Below are positions 4,420-63,474 of a stretch of 64,000 nucleotides of DNA, piece by piece. Position numbers and translations under genes: made by a program. The stretch covers positions 248,001 through 312,000 of the forward strand of contig NZ_VFRQ01000005.1 in the NCBI RefSeq assembly GCF_006385705.1, written 5' to 3'. The first letter of the stretch is position 1. Each line of letters begins with the position of its first letter. Origin of the DNA: Pontibacter mangrovi (GTDB lineage: Bacteria; Bacteroidota; Bacteroidia; Cytophagales; Hymenobacteraceae). The notes beneath the pieces are model-generated. The model had not been told where the DNA came from, made no database searches, and was given only the letters and a program-made list of their open reading frames with translations.

Positions 4420-5142
4420 TTATTCATTTTTAGCGGCTGCATTGCGCAGGGCGCGCTTTAAAGCCCTGTCGAACAGGAAGTAAAGCCCACCGATAGAAAT
4501 TACAATTAATGCTACCATCAGTATCTGTCCGCCGCGGCCGCTGTCCGGGTTCTGCAGGGCCTGCACCACATCGCGGGCCTGCGTGCCTACCCAGAAGAAA
4601 AAAAGCGTGCGGGGCAGCATGCCCACTATACTTGCCACAAAGAACTTGCGCCTGTTTATCTGCAGCAGCGAGAGCACGAAGTTCATCAGGGCAAAGGGCA
4701 GCACCGGCGAAATGCGCGTCAGGAAGATGAGGCTCCAGCTCTCGCTGCGCAGCTCCTGCATGAGGTTGCGGGCCTTCTCAAAGCGGTTCAGAAAGCTCAT
4801 CATCTTGCCGTGGTCTATTAGCTGGGCTATGCTATACCCGATCAGCGCCGCAATGCCATACGACACCACAATGCCCGCAAAGCCGTTCCAGCCCAGATAA
4901 AAGCCGCTTACCAGCGCCACAAAGGTGGTGGGGGTAAGCGCCAGCGCCATCGTTACAGAGATCACGGCAAAGTATAAAAGCATTTGCCACACCGACAGCC
5001 CCTGCAGCAGGTCCTGGTAATTGTACAGCACCACCGCCACCGTAGAGCTTACCACCACCGGCACCACCACGAGCAAGAGCATCGAGACAAACGTGGAGGC
5101 GTTTTCGCGTATAAAGGTGCGCAGTAGCGGGAGTGACTTCAT
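4420..5142 (-). CDS. TVP38/TMEM64-family (VTT-domain) inner-membrane protein
   Basis: This 240-residue protein has about six hydrophobic segments. The VTT/DedA-like domain spans roughly residues 75-195: an SGFYLGWNGFAGIVVSYGIAALIGY segment and a second re-entrant-like motif, LTRISPVLPFALMNFVLSLL, with Arg and Pro, followed by GMLPRTLFFFWVG. Members of this superfamily are implicated in lipid scrambling or transport and membrane homeostasis; the substrate here is unknown. It is transcribed divergently from the PLP-enzyme gene at 5346, with a 203-bp shared upstream region. Confidence 0.85.
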   Translation of the reverse strand: MKSLPLLRTFIRENASTFVSMLLLVVVPVVVSSTVAVVLYNYQDLLQGLSVWQMLLYFAVISVTMALALTPTTFVALVSGFYLGWNGFAGIVVSYGIAALIGYSIAQLIDHGKMMSFLNRFEKARNLMQELRSESWSLIFLTRISPVLPFALMNFVLSLLQINRRKFFVASIVGMLPRTLFFFWVGTQARDVVQALQNPDSGRGGQILMVALIVISIGGLYFLFDRALKRALRNAAAKNE

Positions 5143-5345
5143 GTGGTGATCGTACTTAGTGAGTATCTGAACTTAGACGAAAGACAAAGTACAAAAGATT
5201 TGTGCGGCTTTGAAAGTATAACGGGGCTGTTTGGCTGTCTCCTTTATACTTTAAAGGGATTTTTTAACTTGCAGCAACCGCGTACGCAGACATTACAGTG
5301 CCAACCTGCGAGAAAACAATCATTCATCAGTATAACTTGTAAACT

Positions 5346-6485
5346 ATGAAATTCGGAACGAAGGCTATACATGCTGGCGTGGAGCCAGACCCAAGTACAG
5401 GCGCCATCATGACGCCCATCTACCAGACATCCACCTACGTACAGCGCTCGCCCGGCGACCACAAAGGCTATGAATACTCGCGCACGCACAACCCCACCCG
5501 CACCCAGCTGCAGAACGCGCTGGCGGCGCTGGAGAACGGCAAGCACGGCCTGTGCTTCGCCTCGGGTATGGCGGCCGTGGATGCTATTATGAAGCTGCTG
5601 AAGCCCGGCGATGAGGTAATCTCCACCAACGACCTGTACGGCGGCAGCTACCGCATTTTTACAAAGATCTTCCAGAACTATGGCATCAAGTTCCACTTTA
5701 CCAACATGCAGGATACAGCTAATGTGGAGAAGCTGGTGAACGAGAACACGAAGATGATCTGGGTGGAGACGCCTACCAACCCGCTGCTCAACATCATCGA
5801 CATAAAGGCGTACGGTAAGCTTTGCAAGAAGCACAACTTGCTGCTGGTGGCCGATAACACCTTTGCCACGCCATACCTGCAAACCCCACTGGACATGGGC
5901 GCCGACATGGTGATGCACTCGCTGACCAAGTACATGGGCGGCCACTCGGATGTGGTGATGGGGGCAGTTGTGGTGAACAGTGATGACCTGCGCGAGCGGC
6001 TGGCCTTTATCCAGAACTCCTGCGGCGCCACGCCCGGGCCTCAGGATTGCTTCCTGGTGCTGCGCGGCCTCAAAACCCTGCACCTGCGCATGGAGCGCCA
6101 CTGCCAGAACGGCCGCCAGGTGGCCGAGTTCCTGAAGAATCATCCTAAGGTAAACAAGGTGTACTGGCCTGGCTTTGCCGAGCACCCGAACCACGAGGTG
6201 GCCCAAAAACAAATGCGCGACTTCGGTGGCATGGTGTCGTTTGAACTGAAGGGCAATAACGTGGACGACGCCATTCGTGTGCTGGAGAACCTGAGGCTGT
6301 TTGCGTTGGCTGAGTCGTTGGGCGGCGTGGAGTCGTTGTGCGGCCACCCGGCTACCATGACGCATGCCAGCATCCCGCGCGAAGACCGCATGAAAGCCGG
6401 CCTAAGCGACACGCTGATTCGCCTGAGTGTGGGTGTGGAAGACGCCGAAGACCTCATCTCGGACCTGGAGCAGGCGATTGGATAG
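5346..6485 (+). CDS. Cys/Met-metabolism PLP enzyme, probable cystathionine gamma-synthase or beta-lyase
   Basis: This 379-residue cytosolic enzyme is of full length for the trans-sulfuration family. It has GYEYSRTHNPTR (cofactor-phosphate region, about residues 41-52), FASGMAA (71-77), the ETPTNP segment (141-146) and VADNTF (168-173). The PLP lysine is K195 in HSLTKYMGGHSD. The family makes or breaks cystathionine in methionine/cysteine interconversion. The exact reaction (gamma-synthase, beta-lyase or gamma-lyase) cannot be decided from motifs alone, so no symbol is given. The ATG is preceded by a 200-bp divergent promoter region. No SAM riboswitch was recognised upstream. Confidence 0.9.
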   Translation: MKFGTKAIHAGVEPDPSTGAIMTPIYQTSTYVQRSPGDHKGYEYSRTHNPTRTQLQNALAALENGKHGLCFASGMAAVDAIMKLLKPGDEVISTNDLYGGSYRIFTKIFQNYGIKFHFTNMQDTANVEKLVNENTKMIWVETPTNPLLNIIDIKAYGKLCKKHNLLLVADNTFATPYLQTPLDMGADMVMHSLTKYMGGHSDVVMGAVVVNSDDLRERLAFIQNSCGATPGPQDCFLVLRGLKTLHLRMERHCQNGRQVAEFLKNHPKVNKVYWPGFAEHPNHEVAQKQMRDFGGMVSFELKGNNVDDAIRVLENLRLFALAESLGGVESLCGHPATMTHASIPREDRMKAGLSDTLIRLSVGVEDAEDLISDLEQAIG

Positions 6486-6890
6486 AAGACGCAAAACCTG
6501 ATGTAGACTTAGAAGGGCCGCCAGCTTTATAGTTGTCGGTCTTTTTGTTTGTCTATACTTTGGTGGTGCAGCGGAAGTGTACTTTTGTGCGTAGTTTGGA
6601 GAAGGTGAAATTCGCACATCTCTGGAGTAGTAATTACCTCATGTCCCTCTTCAATGCGAGACTTTTTGCTGTGCCAGTTTATTCCCTCTTGGGAGTAGGG
6701 CCATTTCATCCTCTCTTTTAGTCATCCTGAAAGGATCTTGTGAGCCGGTAGCGTTAGCTTAACACACTTTCTACCAAGATTCTTGACAGAATGACAGGAA
6801 TTAAGAAGCCTATTTTTTAGAATGAAGCAGCTTTGCTGCCAGGGTAAACCATCAACATGAAATGAAGATCCAGAAAGTATAAAACCACAC
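6486..6890. other. Gene-free spacer holding a palindromic repeat
   Basis: This 405-bp stretch follows the PLP-enzyme gene and contains no convincing ORF. It holds a copy of AAGTATA (as TATACTT near 6553) and the imperfect inverted repeat at 6721-6795, listed separately. Short T-rich runs at 6541-6560 may end the upstream transcript (CTTTTTGTTTG). Confidence 0.5.
6721..6795. repeat. Imperfect inverted repeat of the GTCATyCTGA...ATCTTG type
   Basis: The left arm (6721-6742) starts GTCATCCTGAAAGGATCTTG. The right arm (6774-6795) is its imperfect reverse complement, ending GACAGAATGAC. About 31 bp separate them. It lies in an intergenic spacer, as a small dispersed palindromic element would. Only one copy is in the window. 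Confidence 0.55.
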
Positions 6891-7406
6891 ATGGCAGACG
6901 AGCAGATCATACTTTACAGGGAGCGGCAGCGGTTCAGGCAACTATGGCTGTGGGTGGTGGTGCTGGGCGTGGCAGCTATTTTCTGGGTAGGCTTTGTGTA
7001 CCAGGTGCTGATGGGCGGGCTGTATGGCAACAGGCCGGTGCCTGATGTGCAGCTAAGTATACTTTTCGTGCTGGTGGGGCTGGGGCTGCCGTACTTTTTC
7101 TATAGCATGTCGCTTACCACGGAGGTGCAGCCGGGGCAGGTGCTGGTGCGTTTCTGGCCCTTTCATATCAAGCCCGTTAGAATACCGCTGCACCTGGTGC
7201 GGGATTATGAGCGCGTTACCTACAACCCCATCGGCGACTACGGCGGCTGGGGCATCAGGTGGGGCTTTAAGGGCAAAGCCTACAACATGTCGGGCAACGA
7301 GGGCGTGAAGCTATACTTTTACAACAAAGGCCCGCTGCTGATCGGCTCCCAAAACGCGGGCGAACTGTTCCAGGCCATCAGCGAAGCAAAAAAAGCGAAA
7401 GTGTAG
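6891..7406 (+). CDS. Membrane protein of unknown function (DUF6141-like)
   Basis: This 171-residue protein has two N-terminal transmembrane helices (about residues 18-40 and 55-75) and a cytosolic PH-like beta-rich tail. The segment YNPIGDYGGWGIRWGFKGKAYNMSGNEGVKL (about 108-138) is the most family-like feature and recalls small PH-domain/DUF6141 membrane proteins; the DUF number is from memory. The function is unknown. It is a single gene, closed by a bidirectional hairpin shared with the convergent OmpA-like gene. Confidence 0.65.
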   Translation: MADEQIILYRERQRFRQLWLWVVVLGVAAIFWVGFVYQVLMGGLYGNRPVPDVQLSILFVLVGLGLPYFFYSMSLTTEVQPGQVLVRFWPFHIKPVRIPLHLVRDYERVTYNPIGDYGGWGIRWGFKGKAYNMSGNEGVKLYFYNKGPLLIGSQNAGELFQAISEAKKAKV

Positions 7407-7464
7407 TGGATAGTTGCACAGTATATCCTTTCTCTACTTTTCAACCTTCTTGCCCGCAAAACAT

Positions 7465-7500
7465 AAAGCGCCGGTAACCTCTGTGGCTACCGGCGCTTTG
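7465..7500. terminator. Bidirectional intrinsic terminator
   Basis: Perfect 12-bp arms, AAAGCGCCGGTA (7465-7476) and TACCGGCGCTTT (7488-7499), lie between two convergent genes. Confidence 0.85.
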
Positions 7501-7523
7501 GTATTTATTTGGAAGTATAAAAC

Positions 7524-8234
7524 TTAGGCTTTGATGCCCAGGATTTTATAGATCTCAGTAAAGTCTGGCGTCAGGATGATCTCAGTACGACGGTTTTTAG
7601 CTTTCGCCTCCGCAGTGCGTCCTGAGTCAACTGGCATGTAGAAAGAGCGGCCAGCTGGCGTAATTCTGTCCGGAGACAGGCCTTTCTCAGTCATCAGGCG
7701 CGTGATCTCAGTGGCACGCAGCACGCTCAGATCCCAGTTGTCAGTCAGGTATTTCATGCCGTTCAGCACAGATACGTCGTCTGTGTGTCCTTCTACCATC
7801 ACGTCCACTTCCTGGTTATTCTTCAGTACGCTCACCAGCTGGTCAATGGCTTTCTTGCCGCCGGTATTCACTTTCGTGCTGCCAGTCGGGAACAACAGCT
7901 TGTCAGACATAGAAACGTATACTTTGCCGTCTTTCACCGCCACGCTCAGGTCGCCTTGGTTAAAGCCTTTCAGGGCAGCGTTTACTTCGTTTTTCAGGTT
8001 GTCCAGAACCTTCTGCTGCTCGTTCATGGCACGCTCCATGTCAGCAAGTTTCTGCTCACGCTCTCTCAGAGAGGAAGTCAGTTCATCAACTTTAGCTTTT
8101 GAGGCAGCCAGCTCTTGCTCTTGCGCTTCTTTGCTTGCCTGCAGGTCTTCATACTTTTTAGACGATACGCAAGAAGCCATCATCGAAGAGCACAGAACCA
8201 CAGCAAGGGATGCTTTGAAGAAATTGGATTTCAT
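7524..8234 (-). CDS. OmpA-family peptidoglycan-binding lipoprotein
   Basis: This 236-residue protein has a lipoprotein signal peptide with lipobox MASC (Cys22). A coiled coil covers about 28-90 (ASKEAQEQELAASKAKVDEL, then a second helix). The C-terminal OmpA/MotB domain is at about 95-225 and includes LLFPTGSTKV, VEGHTDDV and the NRRTEIIL peptidoglycan-contacting region. It should be anchored in the outer membrane and bind the cell wall. It is monocistronic, convergent with the gene at 6891. The 188-bp upstream region contains only an A/T-rich promoter-like stretch. Confidence 0.92.
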   Translation of the reverse strand: MKSNFFKASLAVVLCSSMMASCVSSKKYEDLQASKEAQEQELAASKAKVDELTSSLREREQKLADMERAMNEQQKVLDNLKNEVNAALKGFNQGDLSVAVKDGKVYVSMSDKLLFPTGSTKVNTGGKKAIDQLVSVLKNNQEVDVMVEGHTDDVSVLNGMKYLTDNWDLSVLRATEITRLMTEKGLSPDRITPAGRSFYMPVDSGRTAEAKAKNRRTEIILTPDFTEIYKILGIKA

Positions 8235-8422
8235 GGGTGATAAATTAATTGTTTGTTTGGTTAATGTTTGAGAATACTTTGCAAATATGGTAAAAGATAA
8301 GCCTGCAAGCTAAGAAAACTATATAAAAACCAAGAAATTACCTGCAATTCAAGTGTATAAACGGAAGATTCCTTGTTATATTGTATAACAACTATATTTT
8401 TCACAACTCTGGCGGCAAGCCG

Positions 8423-9019
8423 CTAGCGCTCTGACAGATAGATTCGGCGCAGGCGCGGCTGCAAAAACCAGATTCCCAGCGGAAGCAGCATAAAAAGAAA
8501 AACGGTGCCCAGGTATTCGCCGCTTTGCGCCACCCGCGGCGTCTCTACGCTAACCAACGACCGGCCAGCAAAATAGGCGGCATACAGGTAGCAGAACGTG
8601 GCGAACAGGTGCATCGGCACCAGCAGCGCCAGCATGCCCAATGGCAAAGTGCCGGCCGCCAAACTGTCCCGGATAACGGCCCAGGTATAGACAAACAGCA
8701 GCGCGTAGAGCAGCATGTACAGGCAGCCCAGATAAAAGTATAACGGCGTGATTTTGATGCTTTCTGGCAAGCGCTTGTAAAGCCGGGCGCCGACTGTCCA
8801 GAGCCAAAGCGTGATAACCGTGGCAGGCAGGGCGTCAAGCAGCATGGTGAGCACGCGGCCTGCCGAGATGCCCAGTGCGCCGAGTAGCCAGAGCAGGCCC
8901 TGTTGCAGCAAAAGCGGTAACACAAACAGCAGCAGGAAAGCCTGCCAGTGCCGTAGCCGGACAAGGAACATACGCGAAAAGTATAGGTGCAGCGGCAAGA
9001 TGAGAAATTTGCGCCGCAT
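8423..9019 (-). CDS. Polytopic membrane protein of unknown function
   Basis: This 198-residue protein has about five hydrophobic helices (residues 25-48, 58-75, 90-115, 125-150 and 165-190) and Arg-rich ends (MRRKF..., ...RLRRIYLSER), consistent with an inner-membrane protein with cytosolic termini. No family motif recognised. It is transcribed divergently from the isoaspartyl peptidase, with only 47 bp between start codons, so the two promoters must overlap. Confidence 0.6.
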   Translation of the reverse strand: MRRKFLILPLHLYFSRMFLVRLRHWQAFLLLFVLPLLLQQGLLWLLGALGISAGRVLTMLLDALPATVITLWLWTVGARLYKRLPESIKITPLYFYLGCLYMLLYALLFVYTWAVIRDSLAAGTLPLGMLALLVPMHLFATFCYLYAAYFAGRSLVSVETPRVAQSGEYLGTVFLFMLLPLGIWFLQPRLRRIYLSER

Positions 9020-9066
9020 ACGCCAAAAAGCCTTATATTTAACCTACAAAATTCCCATATCGACCT

Positions 9067-10098
9067 ATGAAAAAGCATTTATACTTTCTGTGCCTGTTTC
9101 TGCTTAGCGGCTTTGCAAGCCTGGCGCAGGGCAAGCCCGACTATAGCAAAATCACACTGGTGATTCATGGCGGCGCCGGCACCATCACCCGCCAGAACAT
9201 GACGCCGGAGAAAGAGAAAGCCTACCGCGAGAAGCTGAACGAGGCCCTACAGGTTGGGTATGACGTGCTAAAGAAGGGCGGCACCAGCCTGGATGCCGTG
9301 GAGGCCACCATCCACGTGATGGAAAACTCGCCGCTGTTTAACGCGGGCAAGGGCGCCGTGTTCACCAACGAGGGGAAAAACGAGATGGACGCCGCCGTGA
9401 TGGACGGTAAAACGTTGATGGCGGGTTCTGTGGCTAGCGTCACCACCATCAAAAACCCGATTACCGCTGCCCGCGCCGTGATGGAGAAGTCGGAGCACGT
9501 GATGATGATCGGAAGCGGGGCTGAAAAGTTTGCCAAAATGCAGGGCGTGGAGATCGTGGACCCTTCCTACTTCTACACCGAAACGCGCTACAACCAGCTG
9601 CAAAAGCTGAAAGACAAAGAGAAAACGAAGCTGGACCACGATGGCGGCACCAGCAGCAACGAGAATATTTTTATTGAAGGCAAGAAGTTTGGAACGGTGG
9701 GCTGTGTGGCGCTGGATGCCTATGGTAACCTGGCAGCGGGCACCTCCACGGGCGGCATGACGAACAAACGCTACGGGCGCGTAGGGGACGCTCCGATCAT
9801 TGGGGCCGGAACCTATGCCGACAACAACACCTGCGCCGTGTCTGCCACCGGCCACGGCGAGTACTTTATCCGCTCGGTAGTGGCCCACGACATTGCCGCA
9901 CTGATGGAATATAAAGGCTACTCTGTAAAAAAGGCTGCCGAAGAGGTAGTACTGAAGAAACTGGTGGAGCGCGGCGGCGAAGGCGGTGTGATTGCCCTGG
10001 ACAGGAAAGGCAATGTTGCCATGCCGTTCAACTCGGCAGGCATGTACCGTGGCTACATCAAAAACGGCAAGGCAGAGGTGCTGATCTATAAGGATTAG
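9067..10098 (+). CDS. Isoaspartyl peptidase / L-asparaginase, Ntn-hydrolase (T2 family)
   Basis: This 343-residue protein has a Sec signal peptide (MKKHLYFLCLFLLSGFASLAQG), so it acts in the periplasm. VIHGGAGT near residue 34 is the usual N-terminal motif. Autocleavage should occur before the Thr of FGTVGCVALD (about residue 212), releasing the beta subunit whose new N-terminal Thr is the nucleophile. The downstream AGTSTGGMTNKRYGRVGDAPIIGAGTYAD contains the substrate-binding residues. The family removes isoaspartyl residues and hydrolyses asparagine. Monocistronic, with a hairpin terminator after the stop. Confidence 0.93.
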   Translation: MKKHLYFLCLFLLSGFASLAQGKPDYSKITLVIHGGAGTITRQNMTPEKEKAYREKLNEALQVGYDVLKKGGTSLDAVEATIHVMENSPLFNAGKGAVFTNEGKNEMDAAVMDGKTLMAGSVASVTTIKNPITAARAVMEKSEHVMMIGSGAEKFAKMQGVEIVDPSYFYTETRYNQLQKLKDKEKTKLDHDGGTSSNENIFIEGKKFGTVGCVALDAYGNLAAGTSTGGMTNKRYGRVGDAPIIGAGTYADNNTCAVSATGHGEYFIRSVVAHDIAALMEYKGYSVKKAAEEVVLKKLVERGGEGGVIALDRKGNVAMPFNSAGMYRGYIKNGKAEVLIYKD

Positions 10099-10120
10099 GG
10101 CCAGGCATACTTCCTAAGGC

Positions 10121-10150
10121 AAAGTCAGGAGCGTACCTCCTGACTTTTTT
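10121..10150. terminator. Intrinsic terminator after the isoaspartyl peptidase
   Basis: AAAGTCAGGAG and CTCCTGACTTT form an 11-bp stem with a short loop, followed by T. It lies between convergent genes and can serve both. Confidence 0.85.
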
Positions 10151-10174
10151 ATGGCTAAGCCCAACAAGTATAGC

Positions 10175-10960
10175 TTATTGCTTTTTCTCCCTGCCGCCCA
10201 CGTTTATCACAAAGCCAAGCGAAAAGACCGAATAGGCGGCCGTCAGGGTTTCGCGGTTTTTCAGGCCGATGGTGGTGCCGCTAGTGTACTGCAACTGCAC
10301 CGATGGGTTCAGGGTGAGGCGCGTGTAGAAGATCGGCTCCAGAAAAATGTTGTCCTCCAGCGTTCCCGGCTCATTGTTCAGCGCATAGTCATACATGTCC
10401 ACGTAGCTGGCGCGCAGGGCGGTGCCATAGTTCAGCGGAAACTCGCGGTTCAGCAGCCGCAGCGACTTTTTGCGCTTCGAGCTGAAGTTTACCTGCAGAA
10501 AGTACTTGCTGAAGTTGGCATCATGGCGCTCGTAGCTCATCTCGCCGGTCTCCTTGTCCTCTTCTTTCTCGGTGCGCTCCGAACTGCCGCCCCCAAAGCC
10601 GCCGTAAATCTCCAGCACCCGGTTCTGTTCCGGCCCAAAGGTGGTGTAGTAGCCGCCGGCCGCCTCCAGCAGGTTGTGGCGCATGTCGCGTTTGCGGCGG
10701 TCGCTGCTCAGCATAGAGCCATTCAGAAGCACGGCAAAGTGGTCTGATACGGCATATGCGGTGTTAAAAGTGATATTGCCCTTCGGGGTAACATGGCCGC
10801 CCGCGCTCAGCTCTCCCTTTTGCGTGAACATGGGCACGTTGGGCACATTGGGCATGTAAGCGGAGGTGCCGCAACCAGCCAGCAGCAAGGGCATGGCCAG
10901 TAACATAGAGCAGCGTTTTATACTTTTAGTAAGTGTGGAAGCGGTAAAGGGTGTATTCAT
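10175..10960 (-). CDS. Outer-membrane beta-barrel-like lipoprotein, unknown function
   Basis: This 261-residue protein has a lipoprotein signal peptide with lipobox LAGC (Cys30 counted from the first Met; a later Met start is possible). The mature part alternates polar and hydrophobic residues, with Gly/Tyr/Phe-rich strands (GNITFNTAYAVSDHFAVLLNGS, RVLEIYGGFGGGSSER) and ends AAYSVFSLGFVINVGG, like a small outer-membrane barrel. A charged loop occupies about 130-150. Function unknown. Monocistronic. Confidence 0.65.
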   Translation of the reverse strand: MNTPFTASTLTKSIKRCSMLLAMPLLLAGCGTSAYMPNVPNVPMFTQKGELSAGGHVTPKGNITFNTAYAVSDHFAVLLNGSMLSSDRRKRDMRHNLLEAAGGYYTTFGPEQNRVLEIYGGFGGGSSERTEKEEDKETGEMSYERHDANFSKYFLQVNFSSKRKKSLRLLNREFPLNYGTALRASYVDMYDYALNNEPGTLEDNIFLEPIFYTRLTLNPSVQLQYTSGTTIGLKNRETLTAAYSVFSLGFVINVGGREKKQ

Positions 10961-11204
10961 AAAGTGATATTGAGCAAGGCAAAGTATGCCAACTTAGGCA
11001 AAGCCCCCGGCAAACACAAGCACCTAACGGTCGATTTAGTGAAATATTCAGATTTTTGAGTTAAAAGGCGTAGCTGCCTATTGCATTTTTAACTACGGCC
11101 GCTTTGGCGTAGCTTTGCTGCCTAAGAAGCATTGCCTGCGCGGGTTACAGCCACAGGCTTGTTTGAACTATAACCATGTATTAAAGCATTAGCTGTTCAA
11201 AGCT

Positions 11205-11978
11205 ATGATGAAGGAGGAAATCAAGATATCGGCCACGGTCATCACCTTTAACGAGGAGCGGAACATTGCGCGCTGCCTGCAGTCGCTGCAAGGGGTGGCC
11301 GACGAGATCGTGGTGGTGGACTCTTTCTCCACGGACGGCACGCAGGCCATCTGCGAGTCTTTTGGGGTGAGGTTTGTGCAGCATCCGTTTGGGGGCTATA
11401 TTGAGCAGAAAAACTACGCCGTCACGCAGGCCACCTACGACCATGTGCTGGCCCTGGATGCGGATGAGTGCCTTTCCGAAGAGCTCATTGCTTCCATTAA
11501 GGAGAAAAAAAAGAACTTTGACGCAGACGGCTTTATCGTAAACCGCCTGAACAACTACTGCGGGCAGTGGATACACCACGGGGGATTTTACCCGGACGCT
11601 AAGCTGCGCCTCTGGAACCGAAACAAGGGCCAGTGGGGCGGCACCAACCCGCACGATAAGGTGATGCTGCAGGGAGAGGCCCGCAAGCTAAAAGGCGACC
11701 TGCTGCACTATGCCTACGCCACGGTGGGGGAGCATATTGAGCAGGCAAATAAATTTGCCCGTATTGCGGCCGACGCGGCTTATAAAAAGGGCAAAAAAAT
11801 TAACTTTGTAGTTCACGTATTGCTAAACCCTGGCTTTAAGTTCTTTAAGAAGTACTTTCTGAAGCTGGGTTTTCTGGATGGGTACTATGGGTTTGTTTTC
11901 TGTGGCGTGTCGGCGCAGCTAAACTTCCTGAAGTATCTCCGGCTGTACGAGCTGTACAGGCAAGATAAAAAGAAATAA
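11205..11978 (+). CDS. GT2-family glycosyltransferase (WaaE/KdtX-like)
   Basis: This 257-residue protein has a GT-A fold: VITFNEERNIARCLQSL near residue 8, EIVVVDSFSTDGT (about 33-45) and the metal-binding LALDADECL (about 83-91), followed by KLRLWNR and the HxD-like NPHDKVML region. The C-terminal third holds an amphipathic membrane-associated region (FFKKYFLKLGFLDGYYGFVF). This type adds sugars to lipopolysaccharide core or other glycans at the cytosolic face. It is first of a tight three-gene unit; the next gene begins 1 nt after its stop. Confidence 0.88.
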   Translation: MMKEEIKISATVITFNEERNIARCLQSLQGVADEIVVVDSFSTDGTQAICESFGVRFVQHPFGGYIEQKNYAVTQATYDHVLALDADECLSEELIASIKEKKKNFDADGFIVNRLNNYCGQWIHHGGFYPDAKLRLWNRNKGQWGGTNPHDKVMLQGEARKLKGDLLHYAYATVGEHIEQANKFARIAADAAYKKGKKINFVVHVLLNPGFKFFKKYFLKLGFLDGYYGFVFCGVSAQLNFLKYLRLYELYRQDKKK

Positions 11979-11979
11979 C

Positions 11980-13487: not shown

Positions 13488-13507
13488 TCATACTTCACTC
13501 TCAGTTG

Positions 13508-16808: not shown

Positions 16809-16828
16809 TTCCTTAGAATAAACTAAAT

Positions 16829-54696: not shown

Positions 54697-54725
54697 CCAG
54701 GCTGTAGGTATAAACTGATACTCAT

Positions 54726-55400: not shown

Positions 55401-55465
55401 GCCGGTTTTCGTTGTCTATTTTCAGAAGCAGGTAAGAATCGTATACAGATCAAATTGAGCACCAG

Positions 55466-56236
55466 ATGACAGCTAAACTTTTAATGACAGCCTTGTTAGC
55501 AGGTAGTTTTTTTATGGCACAGGCACAGCAAAAAGCAAAACCGGAAGACACAGAAGTATGGGAGCCCGTACCCGAAGTGGTAAAGCCCGGGGAAGTAAGT
55601 ATAGAGGCTCCGGCGGATGCGGTTTTCCTGTTCAATGGGAAAAGCCTGGATCAGTGGGTATCCACGAATGATAGGTCCAAGCCCGCAGGGTGGACTGTTT
55701 CGGATGGGGTTATGACGGTAAACAAGCAGGCCGGCAACATCGAGACGAAAAAAGCTTTCACGGATTACCAACTGCACATCGAGTGGCGCATTCCGGAGAA
55801 CATCAACCTGGAGGGGCAGTCGCGGGGCAACAGCGGCCTGTTCCTGGCCTCTACAGGCAAAGGCGATGATGGATATGAACTGCAGTTGCTGGACTCCTAC
55901 AACAACAAAACCTACGTGAACGGGATGGCGGGCAGCATTTACAAGCAGTTTGTTCCGTTGGCAAACCCAGCCAGGAAGCCCGGTGAGTGGCAGAGCTACG
56001 ATGTGTTCTGGAAAGCGCCTGTTTTCGCCGAGGATGGCTCCGTGAAATCTCCTGCACGGGTAACCGTACTGTTCAACGGCGTGCTGGTACAGAACAACGT
56101 GGAGTTGCTCGGGCCTACGCAGTACATCGGAAAACCATCCTACAAAAAGCACGGGCCAGCCCCGATAAAGCTACAGGCGCATGGTGATAAAAGCGTGCCT
56201 ATCAGCTTCCGCAACATCTGGATAAGAGAGCTTTAA
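55466..56236 (+). CDS. DUF1080-domain protein
   Basis: This 256-residue protein has a Sec signal peptide (MTAKLLMTALLAGSFFMAQAQ) followed by one DUF1080 domain (about 45-255): FLFNGKSLDQWVSTNDRSKPAGWTVSDGVMTV, HIEWRIPENINLEGQSRGNSGLFLAS, GYELQLLDSYNNKTYVNGMAGSIY, APIKLQAHGDKSVPISFRNIWIREL. By family it should be a periplasmic 3-keto-glycoside hydrolase or lyase. It is 65 bp behind the subunit-3 gene, so probably co-transcribed. A strong terminator follows. Confidence 0.88.
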   Translation: MTAKLLMTALLAGSFFMAQAQQKAKPEDTEVWEPVPEVVKPGEVSIEAPADAVFLFNGKSLDQWVSTNDRSKPAGWTVSDGVMTVNKQAGNIETKKAFTDYQLHIEWRIPENINLEGQSRGNSGLFLASTGKGDDGYELQLLDSYNNKTYVNGMAGSIYKQFVPLANPARKPGEWQSYDVFWKAPVFAEDGSVKSPARVTVLFNGVLVQNNVELLGPTQYIGKPSYKKHGPAPIKLQAHGDKSVPISFRNIWIREL

Positions 56237-56763
56237 TGCCGCTGTAGTATAAGTATAAACGATTTTTTTAAAGTGAGGATGAAGTCGCAGCTTGACACCT
56301 TTTTACAAGGCCGAAAGCTGCGGCTTCTTTTTTATAGGGTTTGTAAAGAAGCTTGAGAAACAGCGGCACCAGCTTGCTAAAGTTGATGCCGCACAGAATA
56401 AGATTATTTCTGGACTTTTAGGCCCTGTGGCTTTTCTTATACTCTTATAATTTATATATTAATACGCTGAAAGTCAGCTGACAGCTCCTGAACCCGCTAC
56501 TGCAGTTATGCAGAAAAACTAATCCAGGATGAGACGCCATGCATTGGCACCGCCTCTCTAAACCCAGTACACCGCTATCCAGCGAAAGCCGCTATTACTC
56601 TAAACCAGAGCAGCGGCAAGATACGCTTACCTCCGGAGTGCCGCGGCCTCACAGGGCGGATGCAGGCATTTGGTTTCGGATGAATACGCTTACTGTTTGT
56701 TTTTAATGGCTTTAACGAGCCGGATAAGTATAAAAGTTAACGTAGTATAAACCTTCACTCTTC
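56237..56763. other. Spacer with terminator before the Gfo/Idh/MocA gene
   Basis: 527 bp. It starts with a terminator (56281-56333). It holds a 10-bp palindrome GTCAGCTGAC (56472-56481) and two heptamers (AAGTATA near 56251 and 56727). No clear gene. Confidence 0.5.
56281..56333 (+). terminator. Intrinsic terminator after the DUF1080 gene
   Basis: GAAGTCGCAGCTT (56281-56293) and AAGCTGCGGCTTC (56315-56327) form a 13-bp stem with one mismatch, followed by TTTTTT. Confidence 0.85.
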
Positions 56764-58038
56764 ATGAAACCAGACCAAGAGAACTCAAGGCGGGATTTTT
56801 TAAAGAAGTCTGCCCTTGCACTAGCTTCATTCACCATTGTGCCGCGCTTTGTGTTGGGGGGCAAAGGATACGTGGCCCCCAGCGACCAGCTCACCAAAGG
56901 CGTGATCGGCGTAGGCTCCATGGGCCGCAACCACTTTCCCTACGGCGATACCCGCGTGGTGGCCGTTTGTGACGTGGACCAGAACCACCTGAAAACCGCC
57001 GTGGACATGCTGGGCAAAGGCGTAAAAACCTTCACCGACTACCGGGAGCTGATCCAGCTGCCGGAGGTGGATATCGTGCACATCGCCACGCCGCCGCACT
57101 GGCACGGCATTATGGCGGCCGATGCGGCACGGGCCGGAAAGGACATCTGGTGCGAAAAGCCGATGACCCGCACCATCGGGGAGGGCAAACGCGTGGTGGA
57201 GGCCGTGCAGCAGCACGGGCGCATCTTCCGCCTCAACACCTGGTTCCGCTTCGACGATGTTTTCTACGGCATGGGCACCACCGTTAAGCCAATCAAGAAG
57301 CTGGTGGACAGCGGCCTTTTGGGCTGGCCTTTAAAAGTAACCGTGGGCCGCGGTACCGGCTACGACTGGAAGTTCTACTGGGTAGGCAAGACTAACCTGG
57401 ACCCGGTTCCGGTGCCGAAAGATCTGGACTACAACAGGTGGCTGGGGCCGGCTCCCTACAAGCCCTACAACCCGCACCGCGTGCACGGCACCTTCCGCGG
57501 CTACTGGGACTACGACGGCGGCGGCCTCGGCGATATGGGCCAGCACTACATGGACCCCATACAGTATTTCCTGGGCAAGGACAACACCAGCCCGGTGTCC
57601 GTGGAAATCGATGCGCCGCAGCAGCACACCGATGCCGTTGGCACCTGGCGCAGAATCACCTATACTTATGAAGACGGCTGCCAGATCATCCTGGATGGCG
57701 AGGGGAAAGAAGAAAACATCCCTTACATCGAAGGGCCAAAGGGAAAACTTTACCCCGGCTTTCGTTCCGACATCCCTGACCTCCAGCGGAAACTGGCCGC
57801 CTTCCCGGACCCCGAGCCGCAGGTGACGGACTTTGTGCAGGCCGTGAAGAATCGCCAGAAGTTCGCGCTAAACGAGGAGAACGGCCACCGGTCCTGCACG
57901 CTGGTGAACATGGGCCTGGCGGCCCTGCGGCTGGGGCGCTCCCTCAGGTTCGATCCCGTGAAGCAGGAGTTCATCGACGATGAGGGTGCGAACCGCCTGG
58001 TATACCAGCCCATGCGCTCCGACTGGACGCTGGCGTAG
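56764..58038 (+). CDS. Gfo/Idh/MocA-family oxidoreductase, Tat-exported
   Basis: This 424-residue protein has a twin-Arg signal (NSRRDFLKKSALALASFTIVPRFVLGG). The Rossmann domain follows (GVIGVGSMGRNHF, about 44-56; VVAVCDVDQ; IVHIATPPHWH; the EKPMTR lysine-bearing motif at about 133) and the C-terminal dimerisation/substrate domain (GGGLGDMGQHYMDPIQYF). Such periplasmic enzymes carry tightly bound NAD(P) and catalyse redox changes on sugars, for example reduction of keto sugars or 1,5-anhydro-sugar formation. Its role here as keto-sugar reductase is inferred from neighbours. Confidence 0.9.
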   Translation: MKPDQENSRRDFLKKSALALASFTIVPRFVLGGKGYVAPSDQLTKGVIGVGSMGRNHFPYGDTRVVAVCDVDQNHLKTAVDMLGKGVKTFTDYRELIQLPEVDIVHIATPPHWHGIMAADAARAGKDIWCEKPMTRTIGEGKRVVEAVQQHGRIFRLNTWFRFDDVFYGMGTTVKPIKKLVDSGLLGWPLKVTVGRGTGYDWKFYWVGKTNLDPVPVPKDLDYNRWLGPAPYKPYNPHRVHGTFRGYWDYDGGGLGDMGQHYMDPIQYFLGKDNTSPVSVEIDAPQQHTDAVGTWRRITYTYEDGCQIILDGEGKEENIPYIEGPKGKLYPGFRSDIPDLQRKLAAFPDPEPQVTDFVQAVKNRQKFALNEENGHRSCTLVNMGLAALRLGRSLRFDPVKQEFIDDEGANRLVYQPMRSDWTLA

Positions 58039-58097
58039 CTGTAACATAAAACTCAAAAGCATTCTTGTATAGGTTAGAATTATACTGCACCGATATC

Positions 58098-61000
58098 ATG
58101 AAAAGAACATCACTCTTGCTCCTGGCTTTGCTTATGGTAAGCACTGCCGTTGTGGGGCAACGAAAAAATGACCAGCGAACCCTTTCCACGAAGATCGCTG
58201 ACTTGCTGGCAGAGCTGCCGGCAAAAGACGAAAAACACCTTCAGGCAAGCATGGCGGAAATGGCCGCTATGGGAGAGGAGGGCCTCGTGGAAATGGCCGG
58301 CTTGCTGTCGGCCCCCGGCGAGGGGGACAACACAGGTATAGAGTATGCGCTGGGAGGATTCTCCGCTTACGTGATGCAGCCAGAGAGAAAGGAATGGCGG
58401 AAGATGAGCGCCAATGCCTATTGCCGCGCCCTGCAAAATGCCACGCATGAGGAGAACAAAGCCTTTTTGATCAGGCAGCTGCAGACGGTCGGGGATGATG
58501 CCGCTGTTTCCTGTCTGCAGGGCTATCTGGGCGACGAACGCCTGTGCGGACCCGCCGCCAGAGCCCTTACAAGTATAAATAGTCCCGCCGCCAGCCAGGC
58601 GCTCCTGCAGGCCCTGCAAAAGGCGCAAGGCGACTGTCAACTGTCCATGGTGGAGGCGCTCGGTGACACCCGCCATACTGGAGCAGCTTCGGCCTTGGCG
58701 CCGCTGACAAGCAGCCAGGATGAGAAACTGAGAAAGCTCACGCTTTACGCCCTGGCCAACATCGCAAATCCTTCTTCGGAGGCCATACTTGCTAAAGCGG
58801 CGGAAGAAGATCAGTATAAGTATGACGAAGACAACGCCACCGCCACTTACCTGTTGTTTGCCAAAAGGCTGGCAGAGAACGGGCAGCAGCCACAGGCAGA
58901 GAAGATAGCTCAATCCATCCTGAGCAAGGCCACTGCCGAGGAGCAGGTGCACACGCGTACGGCAGCCCTGAAGCTTTTGGCCGACCTGCAAAAAGAGCAA
59001 AGTATGAACCTGTTGGTAGAGGCAGCGGGCAACCCGAATCCGGAATACCGCGCCGCCGCCCTGAAATTTGCCGCGCCATACCTGACCGCTGACAACACGG
59101 CCCTGTGGGTGAAGAAGCAAAAGAAAGCCGATGCCCAGGTGCAGGCAGAGATCATCACCATGCTGGGCAAGAGCGGCGCAAAGAGTGCGCTGCCGGCAGT
59201 GGAAAAGGCGCTGAAGGATAAAGACATGCAGGTAAGGCTTGCAGCCATTGGCGCGGCCGGCAGATTGGGGCAGGAAGAGGCGCTGCCCTCCTTGTTTAAA
59301 ACGATGCGAAAAGGCGGCGAGGAAGAAGCGGTAGCCGTGAAAAATGCCTTGCTGATCATGAAAGGCGAGGGTATGACGGACAAAGTATCGGAGGCCTTGC
59401 CAAAGATGCCCGCAGTGGCCCAGGCGGAGCTGTTGGCAGTTTTAGGAGCCCGCGGCGAGAACCGGAAGTTCCAGGAAGTGCTGCCGTACGCAAAGCATGA
59501 TAACGCTAAAGTGCGCCTGGCTGCGCTGGAGGCACTCGCCAACATGGCCACCAAAGAGAACCTGCCACAGCTGTTCGCTCTTCTGAACGAAACCACGCAA
59601 CCGGAAGAACTGGCGGCGGTGCAAAAAGCCGTGGTGGCAGCGGTAGGCGATTATGAAAATCAGTCGGAGAAGGCAGCGCTGGTGCTGCAAAAAATGAACG
59701 AGGCGCCGGCAGAGAAGAAACCGGCCTATTATAACATACTGGCAAGTATAGGCGGGGACCAGGCGCTGCAGGCTGTCGCGCAGGCATTCGAAAACGGAAA
59801 TGAGGCCAGCAAATCCGCCGCCCTGGCAGCGCTTTCGCAATGGTCGGATGTGAGCGCGGCAAAAGAGCTGTACCGCATCAGCGCCAGTGCCAACAACGCC
59901 ACCTACCTGGACGAGGCGCTGAAAGGCTACATCCGTACCGTGAGCCTCTCCACATACCCGGCGGCCCAGAAGGTGCTGATGCTCCGTAAGGCCATGGAGG
60001 TGGCCAAAACAACAGAGCAGAAGCAGCTTATACTTTCTGAAGTAGGCCGGAACAAGACGTTCCCGGCGCTGGTATTTGCCGGCACGTACCTGAATCAACC
60101 TGATCTGCAGCAAGAAGCCGCGCATGCGGTCATGAACATTGCGCTCTCCAACAAGGAGTTCCAGGGAGACGTGGTGCGTGGTTACCTGAACAAGACCATC
60201 CAGGTGCTGCAGGGGCCCGACAGCGAGTATCAGAAAGAGTCGATGCGCAAGTTTCTGGCCGAGATGCCGGAGGGAGAGGGCTTTGTGCCGCTGTTCAACG
60301 GCAAAGACCTGAGCGGGTGGAAAGGACTGGTCGGCAACCCGATAGAGCGGGCCAAGATGGACAGCAAGACGCTGGCTCAGAAGCAAAAAGTGGCCGACGA
60401 GGAAATGCGACGAGACTGGAAAGTAGAGAACGGTGAGATCATTTACGTGGGGCATGGCTTCAACAACCTCGCTACCCAGAAGAAGTATGGCGACTTTGAA
60501 ATGTATGTGGACTGGAAGATCTTTGACGATGGAAACAAGGAAGGCGATGCCGGCATTTACCTGCGCGGCACGCCGCAGGTGCAGATGTGGGACACCTCGC
60601 GGGTAGACGTGGGGGCACAGGTAGGCTCCGGAGGCCTGTACAACAACCAGGTGCACCCAAGCAAGCCGCTGAAGGTAGCCGATAACGCGCTGGGCGAGTG
60701 GAACAACTTCCGCATCCTGATGAAAGGCGACCGTGTGACCGTATACCTGAACGGGGAGCTGGTGACCGATAACGTGATCCTGGAGAACTACTGGGACAGG
60801 GGCCTGCCGATCTTCCCGGAGGAGCAGCTGGAGCTGCAGGCGCATGGTTCCAGGGTAGCCTACCGCGATATTTACATCCGTGAGATCCCGCGCCCTGAGC
60901 CGTTTCAGCTGAGCGCTGCAGAGAAGAAAGAAGGTTTTAAGGTGCTGTTCGACGGCACCAACATGCACAGCTGGCAGGGCAACACCACCGACTATGTGAT

Positions 61001-61529
61001 TGAGGATGGCGTGATGGTGGTGCACAAACCCAAGTTCGGAAGCGGCGGTAACCTGTATACCAAGGAGGAGTACAGCGATTTTGTTTTCCGTTTCGAGTTT
61101 AAGCTGACGCCGGGAGCCAACAATGGTCTGGGCGTGCGTGCGCCGCTGGAGGGAGACGCTGCCTACCAAGGCATGGAACTGCAGATCCTGGACAACGACG
61201 CCGACATCTACCGCAACCTGGAGGACTACCAGTACCATGGCTCCGTGTACGGGGTGATCACCGCGAAGCGGGGTGCCCTGAAGCCTGTGGGCGAGTGGAA
61301 TTATCAGGAGGTGATCGTGAAAGGGCCGAAGGTGAAGGTGATTCTGAACGGCACCACCATCATGGACGGGGATATCGCGGAAGCCAGCAAGAACGGAACA
61401 CTGGACGGGAAAGACCACCCGGGGCTGAAGCGGAAGAAAGGCTACATCGGCTTCCTGGGCCACGGTTCAACGGTATGGTTCCGCAACATCCGCATCAAAG
61501 ACCTGAGCAAAGACCAGAAAGCTTTATAG
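58098..61529 (+). CDS. HEAT-repeat protein fused to two DUF1080 domains
   Basis: Start chosen at 58098 (MKRTSLLLLALLMVSTAVVGQ, a signal peptide); the longer in-frame start adds 11 non-signal residues. About 1143 residues. The first ~700 are HEAT/armadillo-like helical repeats (many LL..AL..ANPS, ALAALSQWSD units). Two DUF1080 domains follow: about 728-930 (FVPLFNGKDLSGWKG...GIYLRGTPQVQMWDTSRVDVG) and about 947-1137 (FKVLFDGTNMHSWQGNTTDY...GLGVRAPLEGDAAYQGMELQILDNDADIY). Both look intact. Tandem DUF1080 with a helical scaffold is uncommon and suggests a large exported complex on 3-keto-glycosides. Confidence 0.88.
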   Translation: MKRTSLLLLALLMVSTAVVGQRKNDQRTLSTKIADLLAELPAKDEKHLQASMAEMAAMGEEGLVEMAGLLSAPGEGDNTGIEYALGGFSAYVMQPERKEWRKMSANAYCRALQNATHEENKAFLIRQLQTVGDDAAVSCLQGYLGDERLCGPAARALTSINSPAASQALLQALQKAQGDCQLSMVEALGDTRHTGAASALAPLTSSQDEKLRKLTLYALANIANPSSEAILAKAAEEDQYKYDEDNATATYLLFAKRLAENGQQPQAEKIAQSILSKATAEEQVHTRTAALKLLADLQKEQSMNLLVEAAGNPNPEYRAAALKFAAPYLTADNTALWVKKQKKADAQVQAEIITMLGKSGAKSALPAVEKALKDKDMQVRLAAIGAAGRLGQEEALPSLFKTMRKGGEEEAVAVKNALLIMKGEGMTDKVSEALPKMPAVAQAELLAVLGARGENRKFQEVLPYAKHDNAKVRLAALEALANMATKENLPQLFALLNETTQPEELAAVQKAVVAAVGDYENQSEKAALVLQKMNEAPAEKKPAYYNILASIGGDQALQAVAQAFENGNEASKSAALAALSQWSDVSAAKELYRISASANNATYLDEALKGYIRTVSLSTYPAAQKVLMLRKAMEVAKTTEQKQLILSEVGRNKTFPALVFAGTYLNQPDLQQEAAHAVMNIALSNKEFQGDVVRGYLNKTIQVLQGPDSEYQKESMRKFLAEMPEGEGFVPLFNGKDLSGWKGLVGNPIERAKMDSKTLAQKQKVADEEMRRDWKVENGEIIYVGHGFNNLATQKKYGDFEMYVDWKIFDDGNKEGDAGIYLRGTPQVQMWDTSRVDVGAQVGSGGLYNNQVHPSKPLKVADNALGEWNNFRILMKGDRVTVYLNGELVTDNVILENYWDRGLPIFPEEQLELQAHGSRVAYRDIYIREIPRPEPFQLSAAEKKEGFKVLFDGTNMHSWQGNTTDYVIEDGVMVVHKPKFGSGGNLYTKEEYSDFVFRFEFKLTPGANNGLGVRAPLEGDAAYQGMELQILDNDADIYRNLEDYQYHGSVYGVITAKRGALKPVGEWNYQEVIVKGPKVKVILNGTTIMDGDIAEASKNGTLDGKDHPGLKRKKGYIGFLGHGSTVWFRNIRIKDLSKDQKAL

Positions 61530-61554
61530 CAGGACAAGTATAAATTACAGCTTA

Positions 61555-61583
61555 CCGAAGGCCGGCATGTACCGGCCTTCGGC
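61555..61583 (+). terminator. Hairpin after the HEAT-DUF1080 gene
   Basis: CCGAAGGCCGG (61555-61565) and CCGGCCTTCGG (61572-61582) form a perfect 11-bp stem with a 6-nt loop, followed by CATTCATTTC. The T-run is weak, so it may be an attenuator or RNA-stabilising hairpin; the next gene starts 25 bp on. Confidence 0.6.
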
Positions 61584-61607
61584 ATTCATTTCACTTCAAG
61601 AAACATC

Positions 61608-63329
61608 ATGGCAAATATCAATACGTCCGGGCTAGCTGATCATACTTTCGATGCCATCGTGATCGGGTCCGGGATTAGCGGGGGCTGGGCAGCCAAAGAG
61701 CTTTGCGAGCAGGGCCTCAAAACGCTGGTGCTGGAGCGGGGCAGGAACGTGGAGCATCTGAAAGATTATCCTACGGCCACTAAAAATCCCTGGGAGTTGC
61801 CGCACCGTGGCCGCCTGTCGCTGGACCTAAGAGAGGAGAACCCAATCGCCTCCAGGTGCTACGCGTTTAAAGAGGATGCCACCCACTTTTTTGTGAAGGA
61901 CAAAGAACACCCTTATGTGCAGGAGAAGCCCTTCGACTGGATTCGTGGCTACCAGGTGGGTGGCAAGTCACTGTTGTGGGCCCGGCAAACACAGCGCTGG
62001 AGCAAGTATGATTTCGAGGGACCGGCCCGGGATGGCTTCGCCGTAGACTGGCCCATCCGCTACGACGACCTGGCCCCCTGGTACAGCCATGTGGAGCGAT
62101 TTGTCGGGATCAGCGGCAACAAAGATGGGCTGGACACCTTGCCGGATGGGGAGTTCCTGCCGCCCTGGGAGATGAACGTGGTCGAGAAAGCTATCCGCAA
62201 AAGAATTGTGGAGGCGTACCAGGACCGGCATGTGGTGATTGGCCGCTGTGCCCATTTAACGAAGCCCCAGGAGATCCACCATCAGCAGGGGCGCGGGCAG
62301 TGCCAGGCCAGAAGCCTGTGCCAGCGCGGTTGCCCTTACGGCGGCTATTTCTCCTCCAATTCCTCCACACTGCCCTGGGCCGCCAAAACCGGTAACCTCA
62401 CCCTGCGCCCCGACTCCGTGGTGCACTCCATTATGTATGATGAGAAAAAGGGAAGAGCGGTAGGCGTAAGGGTGATAGACGCGCACACGAAAGAGGCAAC
62501 CGAGTACTTTGCCAAAATTATCTTCGTGAACGCCTCCACCCTGAACACCAACCTCATCCTGCTGAACTCCACCTCCTCGCGGTTCCCCAGCGGCTTGGGC
62601 AACGACAATGGCTTACTGGGCAAGTATGTGGCTTTCCATAACTACCGGGGCTCGCTTTCGGCAAGTATGGAAGGGTATGAGGATAGCTATTACTACGGCC
62701 GCCGGCCCTGCGCCGTAATGATGCCGAACTTCCGCAACGTGCACAGGCAGGAGACAGATTTCCTGCGGGGCTACATGGTTTTCTACAGCGCCAGCAGGGG
62801 GAGAGGAGGCGCCGCCGCAAACGGCGAGCAGCTAGGGGCCGCCTACAAGGATGCGCTGCTGGAGCCCGGCGGCTGGGGCATTTACATGATGATGCAGGGA
62901 GAGACGATCCCGAAGGAGAGCAACCATGTGCGCCTGAGTGCCGACGAGAAAGATGCCTGGGGCGTGCCGCTGCTGAAGGTGTCGGTGGGGTATGATGAGA
63001 ATGATGAGAAATCCCTGAAGGACTTCCTGGAGCAGGGCGCGGAGATGCTGGACAAAGCCGGTTGCAAAAACATCCACGTCAACGACAGCCGTCAGGCCCC
63101 GGGGCTGGACATACACGAGATGGGCGGCGTACGCATGGGCCACGATCCGAAGACTTCGCTCCTGAATAAGTATAACCAACTGCATGCCTGCCAAAATGTA
63201 TTCGTAACCGACGGCGCCTGCATGACCTCCACCGGCACGCAGAACCCATCAATCACTTACATGGCGCTAACGGCAAGGGCTGTAAACCATGCGGTGAGCG
63301 AACTGAAGCAGGGGAATCTACAAGTATAA
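61608..63329 (+). CDS. Second GMC-family oxidoreductase, LacA-like
   Basis: This 573-residue protein has FAD-binding VIGSGISGGWAAKEL (about 18-31), QVGGKSLLWARQTQRW (about 117-132), a Cys motif CQARSLCQRGCPYGGYFSSNS (about 228-248), and C-terminal HEMGGVRMGHDP with ITYMALTARAVNHAVSEL (catalytic His-Asn type). The CxxGCPYG form matches other glycoside 3-dehydrogenases more closely than the first GMC protein does. No subunit-3 gene is next to it. Its final codons are CAA GTA TAA, so the stop codon lies in an AAGTATAA copy. It is the last gene of the block. Confidence 0.9.
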   Translation: MANINTSGLADHTFDAIVIGSGISGGWAAKELCEQGLKTLVLERGRNVEHLKDYPTATKNPWELPHRGRLSLDLREENPIASRCYAFKEDATHFFVKDKEHPYVQEKPFDWIRGYQVGGKSLLWARQTQRWSKYDFEGPARDGFAVDWPIRYDDLAPWYSHVERFVGISGNKDGLDTLPDGEFLPPWEMNVVEKAIRKRIVEAYQDRHVVIGRCAHLTKPQEIHHQQGRGQCQARSLCQRGCPYGGYFSSNSSTLPWAAKTGNLTLRPDSVVHSIMYDEKKGRAVGVRVIDAHTKEATEYFAKIIFVNASTLNTNLILLNSTSSRFPSGLGNDNGLLGKYVAFHNYRGSLSASMEGYEDSYYYGRRPCAVMMPNFRNVHRQETDFLRGYMVFYSASRGRGGAAANGEQLGAAYKDALLEPGGWGIYMMMQGETIPKESNHVRLSADEKDAWGVPLLKVSVGYDENDEKSLKDFLEQGAEMLDKAGCKNIHVNDSRQAPGLDIHEMGGVRMGHDPKTSLLNKYNQLHACQNVFVTDGACMTSTGTQNPSITYMALTARAVNHAVSELKQGNLQV

Positions 63330-63381
63330 ACTTTGGGAGCAGAGTAGCCTTACTGCATAGATGTATAAAAAGTATAAGTAT

Positions 63382-63423
63382 AAAAAGAAAACCACCTGTA
63401 AAACTACAGGTGGTTTTCTTTTT
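63382..63423. terminator. Bidirectional intrinsic terminator closing the block
   Basis: Perfect 19-bp arms (63382-63400 and 63405-63423, core AACCACCTGTA) with a 4-nt loop, A-rich before and T-rich after. It separates the catabolic block from the convergent SusD gene. Confidence 0.95.
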
Positions 63424-63474
63424 ATACATTCCGTTGTGCTGGAATGTAATGCAAAGTATAGATGATACTATAGC

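Follow-up and report, generated by a model that had tools for sequence, protein, structure and literature searches.

The 64-kb window analysed here (the whole stretch of 64,000 nucleotides from Pontibacter mangrovi, contig NZ_VFRQ01000005.1) carries the heptamer AAGTATA, or its complement TATACTT, in far more copies than low-order models of its composition predict, and so does the genome as a whole. On balance the word, in the form AAGTATR, is probably a self-recognition signal of the DNA uptake sequence (DUS) type, as judged by analogy with known systems. Features shared with DUS and with the uptake signal sequence (USS) are an over-represented non-palindromic word, dialects that follow groups of species, scarcity in acquired DNA and the presence of ComEC and DprA; the feature that was not recognised is a type IV pilus apparatus whose pilin would be the receptor. 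Since the DUS dialects of Neisseriaceae behave alike, an uptake-type signal is the best reading. A first-pass annotation of this DNA had listed such a signal among several candidate roles, and it is the one that the dialects, the scarcity in prophage and plasmids, the non-palindromic word and its replacement at matching sites appear to favour most.

Exact counting gave 116 copies in the window (70 AAGTATA and 46 TATACTT), where about 109 had been counted by hand against 6–8 expected. Markov models of order 1 and 2 predict 4.2 and 7.6 copies, and AAGTATA is the most over-represented heptamer of the window under orders 1–3. The expectation rises to 22.9, 62 and 104 at orders 3, 4 and 5, but high-order models were trained on DNA with the motif itself, which is absorbed into their expectation. 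In the whole genome (4.88 Mb in 35 contigs), the count is 7,209 (3,481 forward and 3,728 reverse), whereas the heptamer read backwards occurs 324 times. The longer form AAAGTATAAA occurs 8 + 8 times on the two strands of the window, and AAGTATG 47 times, counting both strands. Positions in the window are:

211..63460, both strands: the 116 copies of AAGTATA (with TATACTT)
AAGTATA, plus strand, starts, first part: 4970, 5214, 6875, 7055, 7513, 8736, 8979, 10166, 13835, 14521, 16883, 17206, 17237, 20085, 20124, 20465, 20525, 21299, 21333, 22120, 22399, 22747, 23782, 24057
AAGTATA, plus strand, starts, second part: 24194, 24759, 24918, 25247, 26006, 26177, 27530, 28861, 31578, 31654, 31814, 33045, 34131, 35011, 35089, 35630, 38220, 38508, 38986, 39595, 39800, 42089, 42503
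AAGTATA, plus strand, starts, third part: 42884, 43281, 43998, 44260, 45463, 45470, 48013, 48373, 50804, 52166, 53343, 54541, 55597, 56251, 56726, 58571, 59744, 61536, 63168, 63322, 63370, 63376, 63454
TATACTT, starts, first part: 211, 3834, 4627, 5245, 6554, 7058, 7312, 7918, 9080, 10919, 13838, 15175, 15314, 17547, 20214, 20598, 21642, 22834, 23090, 24653, 25067, 25087, 26498
TATACTT, starts, second part: 29042, 29577, 29740, 30847, 31074, 32719, 33219, 33717, 33744, 35618, 35646, 35705, 35820, 35956, 37135, 41855, 43284, 44877, 45845, 52169, 52732, 57661, 60029
7055..7064: overlapping head-to-head pair AAGTATACTT, a 10-bp palindrome; also at 13835-13844, 43281-43290 and 52166-52175
10926..13834: stretch devoid of the motif, encoding two glycosyltransferases and a protein with a methyltransferase domain
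1..2400: right-hand portion of a prophage with few motifs; its tape measure gene, matched by phrog_3336 and phrog_24, spans 16-2400

The first 4.3 kb contain two copies, at 211 and 3834, and not the single one noted before, while the gap reported at about 10.93–13.83 kb is confirmed between 10,919 and 13,835. Head-to-head overlap in the manner of AAGTATACTT was found for 16 of 143 plus-then-minus neighbour pairs in 429 kb of own sequence, which comprises the window and further fetched pieces, with genes called by a simple in-house caller.

In the same 429 kb, under a third-order model with the word masked, AAGTATA reaches 10.9 times and AAGTATG 5.1 times the expectation, and the remaining 20 words with a single mismatch to AAGTATA lie at 0.8–2.0 times. 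A is favoured just before (1.8) and just after the word (2.4), and T after it is avoided (0.21). This step-like preference suggests recognition of AAGTATR and not a gradual bias. Core and flanks are asymmetric, and the word is not a palindrome of the kind known as highly iterated palindrome (HIP). Genes contain 440 copies, 251 in sense and 189 in antisense orientation, against means of 37 and 17 (54, an eighth of the observed number) in 100 within-gene shuffles of synonymous codons, whose maxima were 51 and 25. Copies occur in each of the six phase-orientation classes, in agreement with the earlier remark that copies lie in several frames, in both senses and in spacers. The excess survives this control for codon usage and is also present in many relatives.

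Word density is 1.25 per kb in coding and 2.56 per kb in intergenic sequence; it reaches 4.9 per kb between convergent genes and 3.1–4.9 per kb in intergenic sequence outside very long gaps. This intergenic peak, the sharp motif and its A-rich flanks are in line with a binding site of an abundant chromosomal protein (a nucleoid protein or a global regulator) selected site by site, as had also been proposed. However, the spacing is near exponential, save a surplus of close pairs and some long empty gaps, and thousands of genic sites in all phases, together with a change of word across whole clades, would be hard to obtain by selection at each site. A binding site is kept as a rival, but an improbable one.

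In these 429 kb the word leans to the sense strand, 57:43 (250 vs. 188; p = 0.0035). In the two largest pieces of own sequence its orientation tracks gene direction and not one strand: the first has 204 forward and 149 reverse copies with 111 of 158 genes on the plus strand, the second 87 forward and 130 reverse copies with 64 of 105 genes on the minus strand, and GC skew is positive in both. A 20-kb piece (C2) is the opposite, with 13 forward and 28 reverse copies, 9 of 14 genes on the plus strand and negative skew. A Chi-like recombination signal, or a polar replication or segregation signal, would likewise be expected as a short and frequent non-palindromic word with few copies in phages and plasmids. 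Against it stand the orientation, which follows the genes in the two largest pieces, the slight sense bias and the 20-kb piece that runs the other way; such a signal is considered quite improbable. The chromosome-organising role suggested before is so far without support, given the tracking of genes in the two largest pieces, the 20-kb piece excepted.

Scarcity in acquired DNA was seen in one prophage and two plasmids. The prophage spans the left edge of the window, with terminase, head protease, portal and endolysin genes upstream of it, and 14 motifs, where 49 are expected (p = 3e-9), were counted in the 32.5 kb judged to be prophage. In P. kalidii, a 74-kb plasmid that is typed as mobilizable and has annotated conjugation genes carries 20 copies against 131 expected from the chromosome, and the P. 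actiniarum plasmid has 40 against 85 over 100 of its 204 kb. From a visual check of protein starts, other long gaps contain transposases accompanied by SusC/SusD-like genes, a groEL operon and an AT-rich stretch; some of them, not all, look acquired. The gap over groEL indicates that constraint, and not foreignness alone, can exclude the word. In the AT-rich gap (GC 0.375 vs. 0.525), zero copies occur in 4.8 kb, and the following stretch gave no Rfam match:

L015 10961-15400: motif-free AT-rich stretch, short open reading frames beside an aminotransferase-like gene

Codon usage, composition or directed mutation could in principle produce the word, and the 62–104 copies predicted by high-order Markov models of the same DNA point that way. 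Those models contain the signal, however, and the AT-rich stretch is devoid of copies. In close pairs of genomes, moreover, 39 single-base differences from AAGTATA are spread over all seven positions, 10 of them being AAGTATG. The codon shuffles and the plasmids together largely contradict this explanation, which is very improbable. A mutational relic, also listed earlier, is disfavoured by the sharp motif, the shuffles and the plasmids.

The comparison across relatives that had been recommended was performed on 50 Pontibacter genomes (G001 is P. actiniarum and G020 P. kalidii), with dialect classes assigned by eye from de novo word counts in 14–429 kb per genome (14 kb only for G017). The excess is present in many of them: the ratio of AAGTATA to the reversed word ranges from 0.8 to about 38 (G016), and does not exceed 2.5 in 66 genomes that were drawn evenly across the family and represent five other genera. 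Dialect A, AAGTATA, was assigned to 19 of the 50 genomes, dialect B, AGGTATA, to 12 and dialect C, AACTATA, to 4, the last two words being often followed by G. Four genomes mix AAGTATA and AACTATA (G013, G015, G045 and G049), three are weak, one is unclear and seven have no dialect (G008, G014, G027, G029, G033, G036 and G047). A-NN-TATA is common to all dialects, and the word forms of the signal are AAGTATAA, AGGTATAG and AACTATAG. No dialect status is claimed for ATATATA, the 'T' word of G035.

In a dnaX tree, all 12 AGGTATA genomes fall into a single clade. In two multi-gene trees (20 genomes each, midpoint-rooted, with some low supports), the AACTATA genomes (4 and 3) nest in a clade with mixed genomes as early branches; G049 is mixed on its own, apart from the others. 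Two separate origins of AACTATA, as first read from the dnaX tree, were dropped because both multi-gene trees give one clade. In addition, the seven dialect-free genomes are larger (mean 5.99 Mb, range 5.2–6.5) than the 39 word-bearing ones (mean 4.59 Mb, maximum 5.5), with p = 4e-5 in a rank test uncorrected for shared ancestry, and six of the seven exceed every one of the 39.

Matching sites were then compared between genomes. All-pairs alignment percentages count sites repeatedly, and tests on distinct sites from single genomes are the corrected version. In the former, AAGTATA is identical at 53% of sites between A genomes vs. 26% for permuted words, and AGGTATA at 72% vs. 25% between B genomes. 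In B genomes, A sites have AGGTATA in 21% of cases, a change seen in 4.6% of control contexts, and keep AAGTATA in 10% (control contexts 18%, permuted words 9%). In C genomes, AACTATA stands at 5.3% of A sites vs. 0.9% in control contexts; AAGTATA stays at 21%, on a par with control contexts (22%) and permuted words (20%), so retention is not lowered there. In dialect-free genomes, 8% of A sites remain vs. 18% in control contexts and 14% for permuted words.

With distinct sites, replacement by the word of the other dialect exceeded the control in five of seven cross-dialect tests (uncorrected p < 0.05): 11/25 vs. 76/587 from G032 to B, 8/34 vs. 44/462 from G025 to B, 5/46 vs. 5/862 from G000 to C, 6/70 vs. 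30/1283 from G028 to A and 4/26 vs. 12/592 from G018 to mixed genomes. Retention within a dialect was 23/28 vs. 51% (G000 to A), 52/54 vs. 71% (G042 to B) and 27/38 vs. 53% (G028 to C), and the word was kept above permuted words in all five close pairs of the dnaX tree.

The main rival is a HIP-like process, in which an orphan DNA methyltransferase or linked repair creates and maintains the word in each cell and the dialects reflect different methyltransferases. According to PMC4390886, cyanobacterial HIP1 and its alternates have high copy numbers and switch between lineages with their methyltransferases, a lineage-specific word replacement like the present one, and deviations from HIP sites are biased to the first and last base. 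The same holds here for AGGTATA, with 18 of 23 single-base differences on these bases (18 of 39 for AAGTATA); the bias is either a HIP-like pattern or a sign that those bases matter less for recognition. HIPs, however, are GC-rich palindromes with matching methyltransferases, unlike the AT-rich, non-palindromic Pontibacter word. A search limited to two methyltransferase families, PF01555 and PF07669, found neither in every word-bearing genome. N6_N4_Mtase (PF01555) occurs in 13/19 A, 10/12 B, 0/4 C, 3/4 mixed, 2/3 weak and 1/1 unclear genomes, and in 2/7 dialect-free ones; it is thus rarer in the dialect-free than in the A, B and mixed genomes, as this rival would have it, but is missing from all four C, from 6 of 19 A and from 19 of 50 genomes overall. 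Eco57I (PF07669) has matches in 47 of 50 genomes, many of them weak. Cell-wide mutation or repair would also mark plasmids unless they had arrived recently, and both plasmids from word-bearing cells are word-poor. The HIP-like process is regarded as unlikely.

Returning to the uptake-type signal, candidate machinery was searched in the 50 genomes. No match to the pilus/secretion ATPase profile PF00437 covered more than 66 of its 370 positions, and three were just over the cut-off, in a search where first-look candidates were incompletely scored in most genomes and pilins were not searched for; all 14 control genomes matched, 13 over the cut-off. Since only short segments were found, a pilus route is unlikely, and the receptor, in view of the lack of a recognised type IV pilus ATPase, would belong to a different class. 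ComEC and DprA are present in 50 of 50 genomes, with stops in two, and equally in the dialect-free genomes, which may take up DNA without preference. The genomes with stops are G021 and G040, each with in-frame stops in both genes, where sequencing error is possible; AAGTATA per kb is lower in G021 than in G023 and the P. mangrovi genome, and in P. actiniarum it is lower still. A small HHH protein of 304–346 aa is present in 49 of 50 genomes and broken in G021 (the matches listed span all 50 genomes).

None of the candidates for the determinant of specificity was retained. The small HHH protein has its top HHH_3 scores in all four C and three of four mixed genomes, but its tree follows that of neighbouring genes. 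DUF5689 is present in 22 of 50 genomes (A 6/19, B 5/12, C 4/4, mixed 2/4, weak 2/3, none 3/7); at six of seven loci examined it lies beside a gene that is SusD-like by eye, L188 being the exception. Residues shared by dialect in nine proteins (ComEC 4, PhoH 2, HHH 1, others 0) were not clearly beyond control proteins. The comEC and HHH neighbourhoods, inspected by eye in 20 genomes each, showed no recognisable uptake cluster.

Under the uptake-type reading, a DNA-binding protein of the cell surface or periplasm would favour incoming DNA with the local word, after passage of the outer membrane through a non-pilus machine and with the conserved HHH protein, ComEC and DprA acting downstream. Import and recombination into the chromosome would favour alleles that carry the word, and the word would consequently accumulate where coding constraint permits. 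A shift of receptor specificity (AAG to AGG, or AAG via AAG + AAC to AAC) would then be followed by the genome. Such raised uptake and recombination of word-bearing DNA would explain both the scarcity on plasmids and the replacement of the word across whole clades. For the full proposal, namely sequence-specific DNA uptake in a pilus-less Bacteroidota lineage through a new receptor class, with specificity shifting from AAGTATA to AGGTATA and via mixed genomes to AACTATA, thousands of sites following, and possibly a further word in a related genus, the chances seem about even.

Several results weigh against an uptake signal. No receptor emerged among the candidates tried (ATPase, ComEC, DprA, DUF5689, HHH, dialect-shared residues, the two methyltransferase families and gene neighbourhoods), and known uptake-word receptors are pilins, inapplicable here. 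ComEC and DprA are without stops in all seven dialect-free genomes and so do not track the word. Replacement was not significant in the remaining two cross-dialect tests (0/18 vs. 26/263 from G000 to B; 7/34 vs. 78/428 from G042 to A). Loss in dialect-free genomes, on distinct sites, went in the same direction but was not significant either (G000 kept 4/37 vs. 24% in controls, p = 0.07; G042 5/23 vs. 38%, p = 0.12). The first- and last-base bias of AGGTATA counts here as well.

To our knowledge, the only families with established uptake words are Neisseriaceae and Pasteurellaceae, and both take up DNA by means of pili. The USS of Pasteurellaceae is likewise a non-palindromic over-represented word tied to competence; unlike the present case, it is an unrelated word in another phylum, with uptake by pili. 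The closer likeness is to the DUS of Neisseriaceae, which PMC3630211 and PMC7371117 describe as a short non-palindromic word in thousands of copies, about one per 400–1100 bp, scarce on acquired islands, with dialects that differ at few positions around a constant core and a two-dialect genome, in which both are equally numerous (PMC3630211). Differences are the core of 7 bases vs. 10–12 in DUS, the Bacteroidota host and the lack of a recognised type IV pilus ATPase, hence of a pilin receptor. In Riemerella anatipestifer, transformation needs ComEC, DprA and a predicted periplasmic HHH protein, as well as a surface pair of a DUF5689 protein and a putative barrel unlike known machinery, according to the accessible part of PMC8459023, which mentions no uptake word. 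Pontibacter is likewise a Bacteroidota genus with ComEC, DprA and an HHH protein, alike by domain only, but the DUF5689/barrel pair was not recognised in it as a competence pair. Among the matches listed in a search of open-access literature, no uptake word appeared for Pontibacter or other Bacteroidota, though a paper on the word alone could be missed. If true, this would be an independent uptake-word case in a pilus-less phylum, with a new receptor that could be found by genetics. The 50 genomes, at varied stages of dialect change including mixed ones, would allow tests of the spread and replacement of a self-tag, and of whether loss of the word accompanies genome growth.

Some minor observations concern the dnaX region. 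The dnaX tree conflicts with both trees built from several genes; for G028, whose dnaX is interrupted by a stop, only the part before the stop was used. The dnaX regions of two C genomes are richer in the A word than their other fetched regions: 18 A and 34 C words vs. 22 and 204 in G018 (L150; p = 3e-5), and 15 and 49 vs. 23 and 231 in G028 (L166; p = 0.004). The surplus could reflect local import from an A species or slow change, and an identity scan gave no clear imported block. In the window, rho adjoins dnaX at 27759-31440, and tblastn found rho in 0 of 49 dnaX stretches (14–20 kb) of the other genomes.

Outside Pontibacter, a related genus (g2, same family) may use yet another word of different structure, AACGCTAT. 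AACGCTA(T), flanked by A-rich and T-rich sequence, has 2,172 copies in G050 (0.49 per kb) vs. 320 reversed, and 1,019 in G055 (0.20 per kb) vs. 334 reversed. It was seen in the following stretches:

L036: AACGCTA(T) stretch
L242: AACGCTA(T) stretch

Elsewhere among the compared genomes AACGCTA stays at about 0.13 per kb or less, with 279 vs. 22 reversed in G057; the reversed word is very rare in some genomes, so the ratio alone is no guide. Strong words in two other Bacteroidota stretches were set aside, that of L083 for a period-3 coding-repeat pattern and that of L045 as perhaps such a repeat too. In Hymenobacter polaris (L040 1-22046), the palindromic, HIP-like CCCTAGG occurs 47 times in 22 kb vs. 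3 expected, and CCTAGG words are likewise abundant in a further member of the family (L245).

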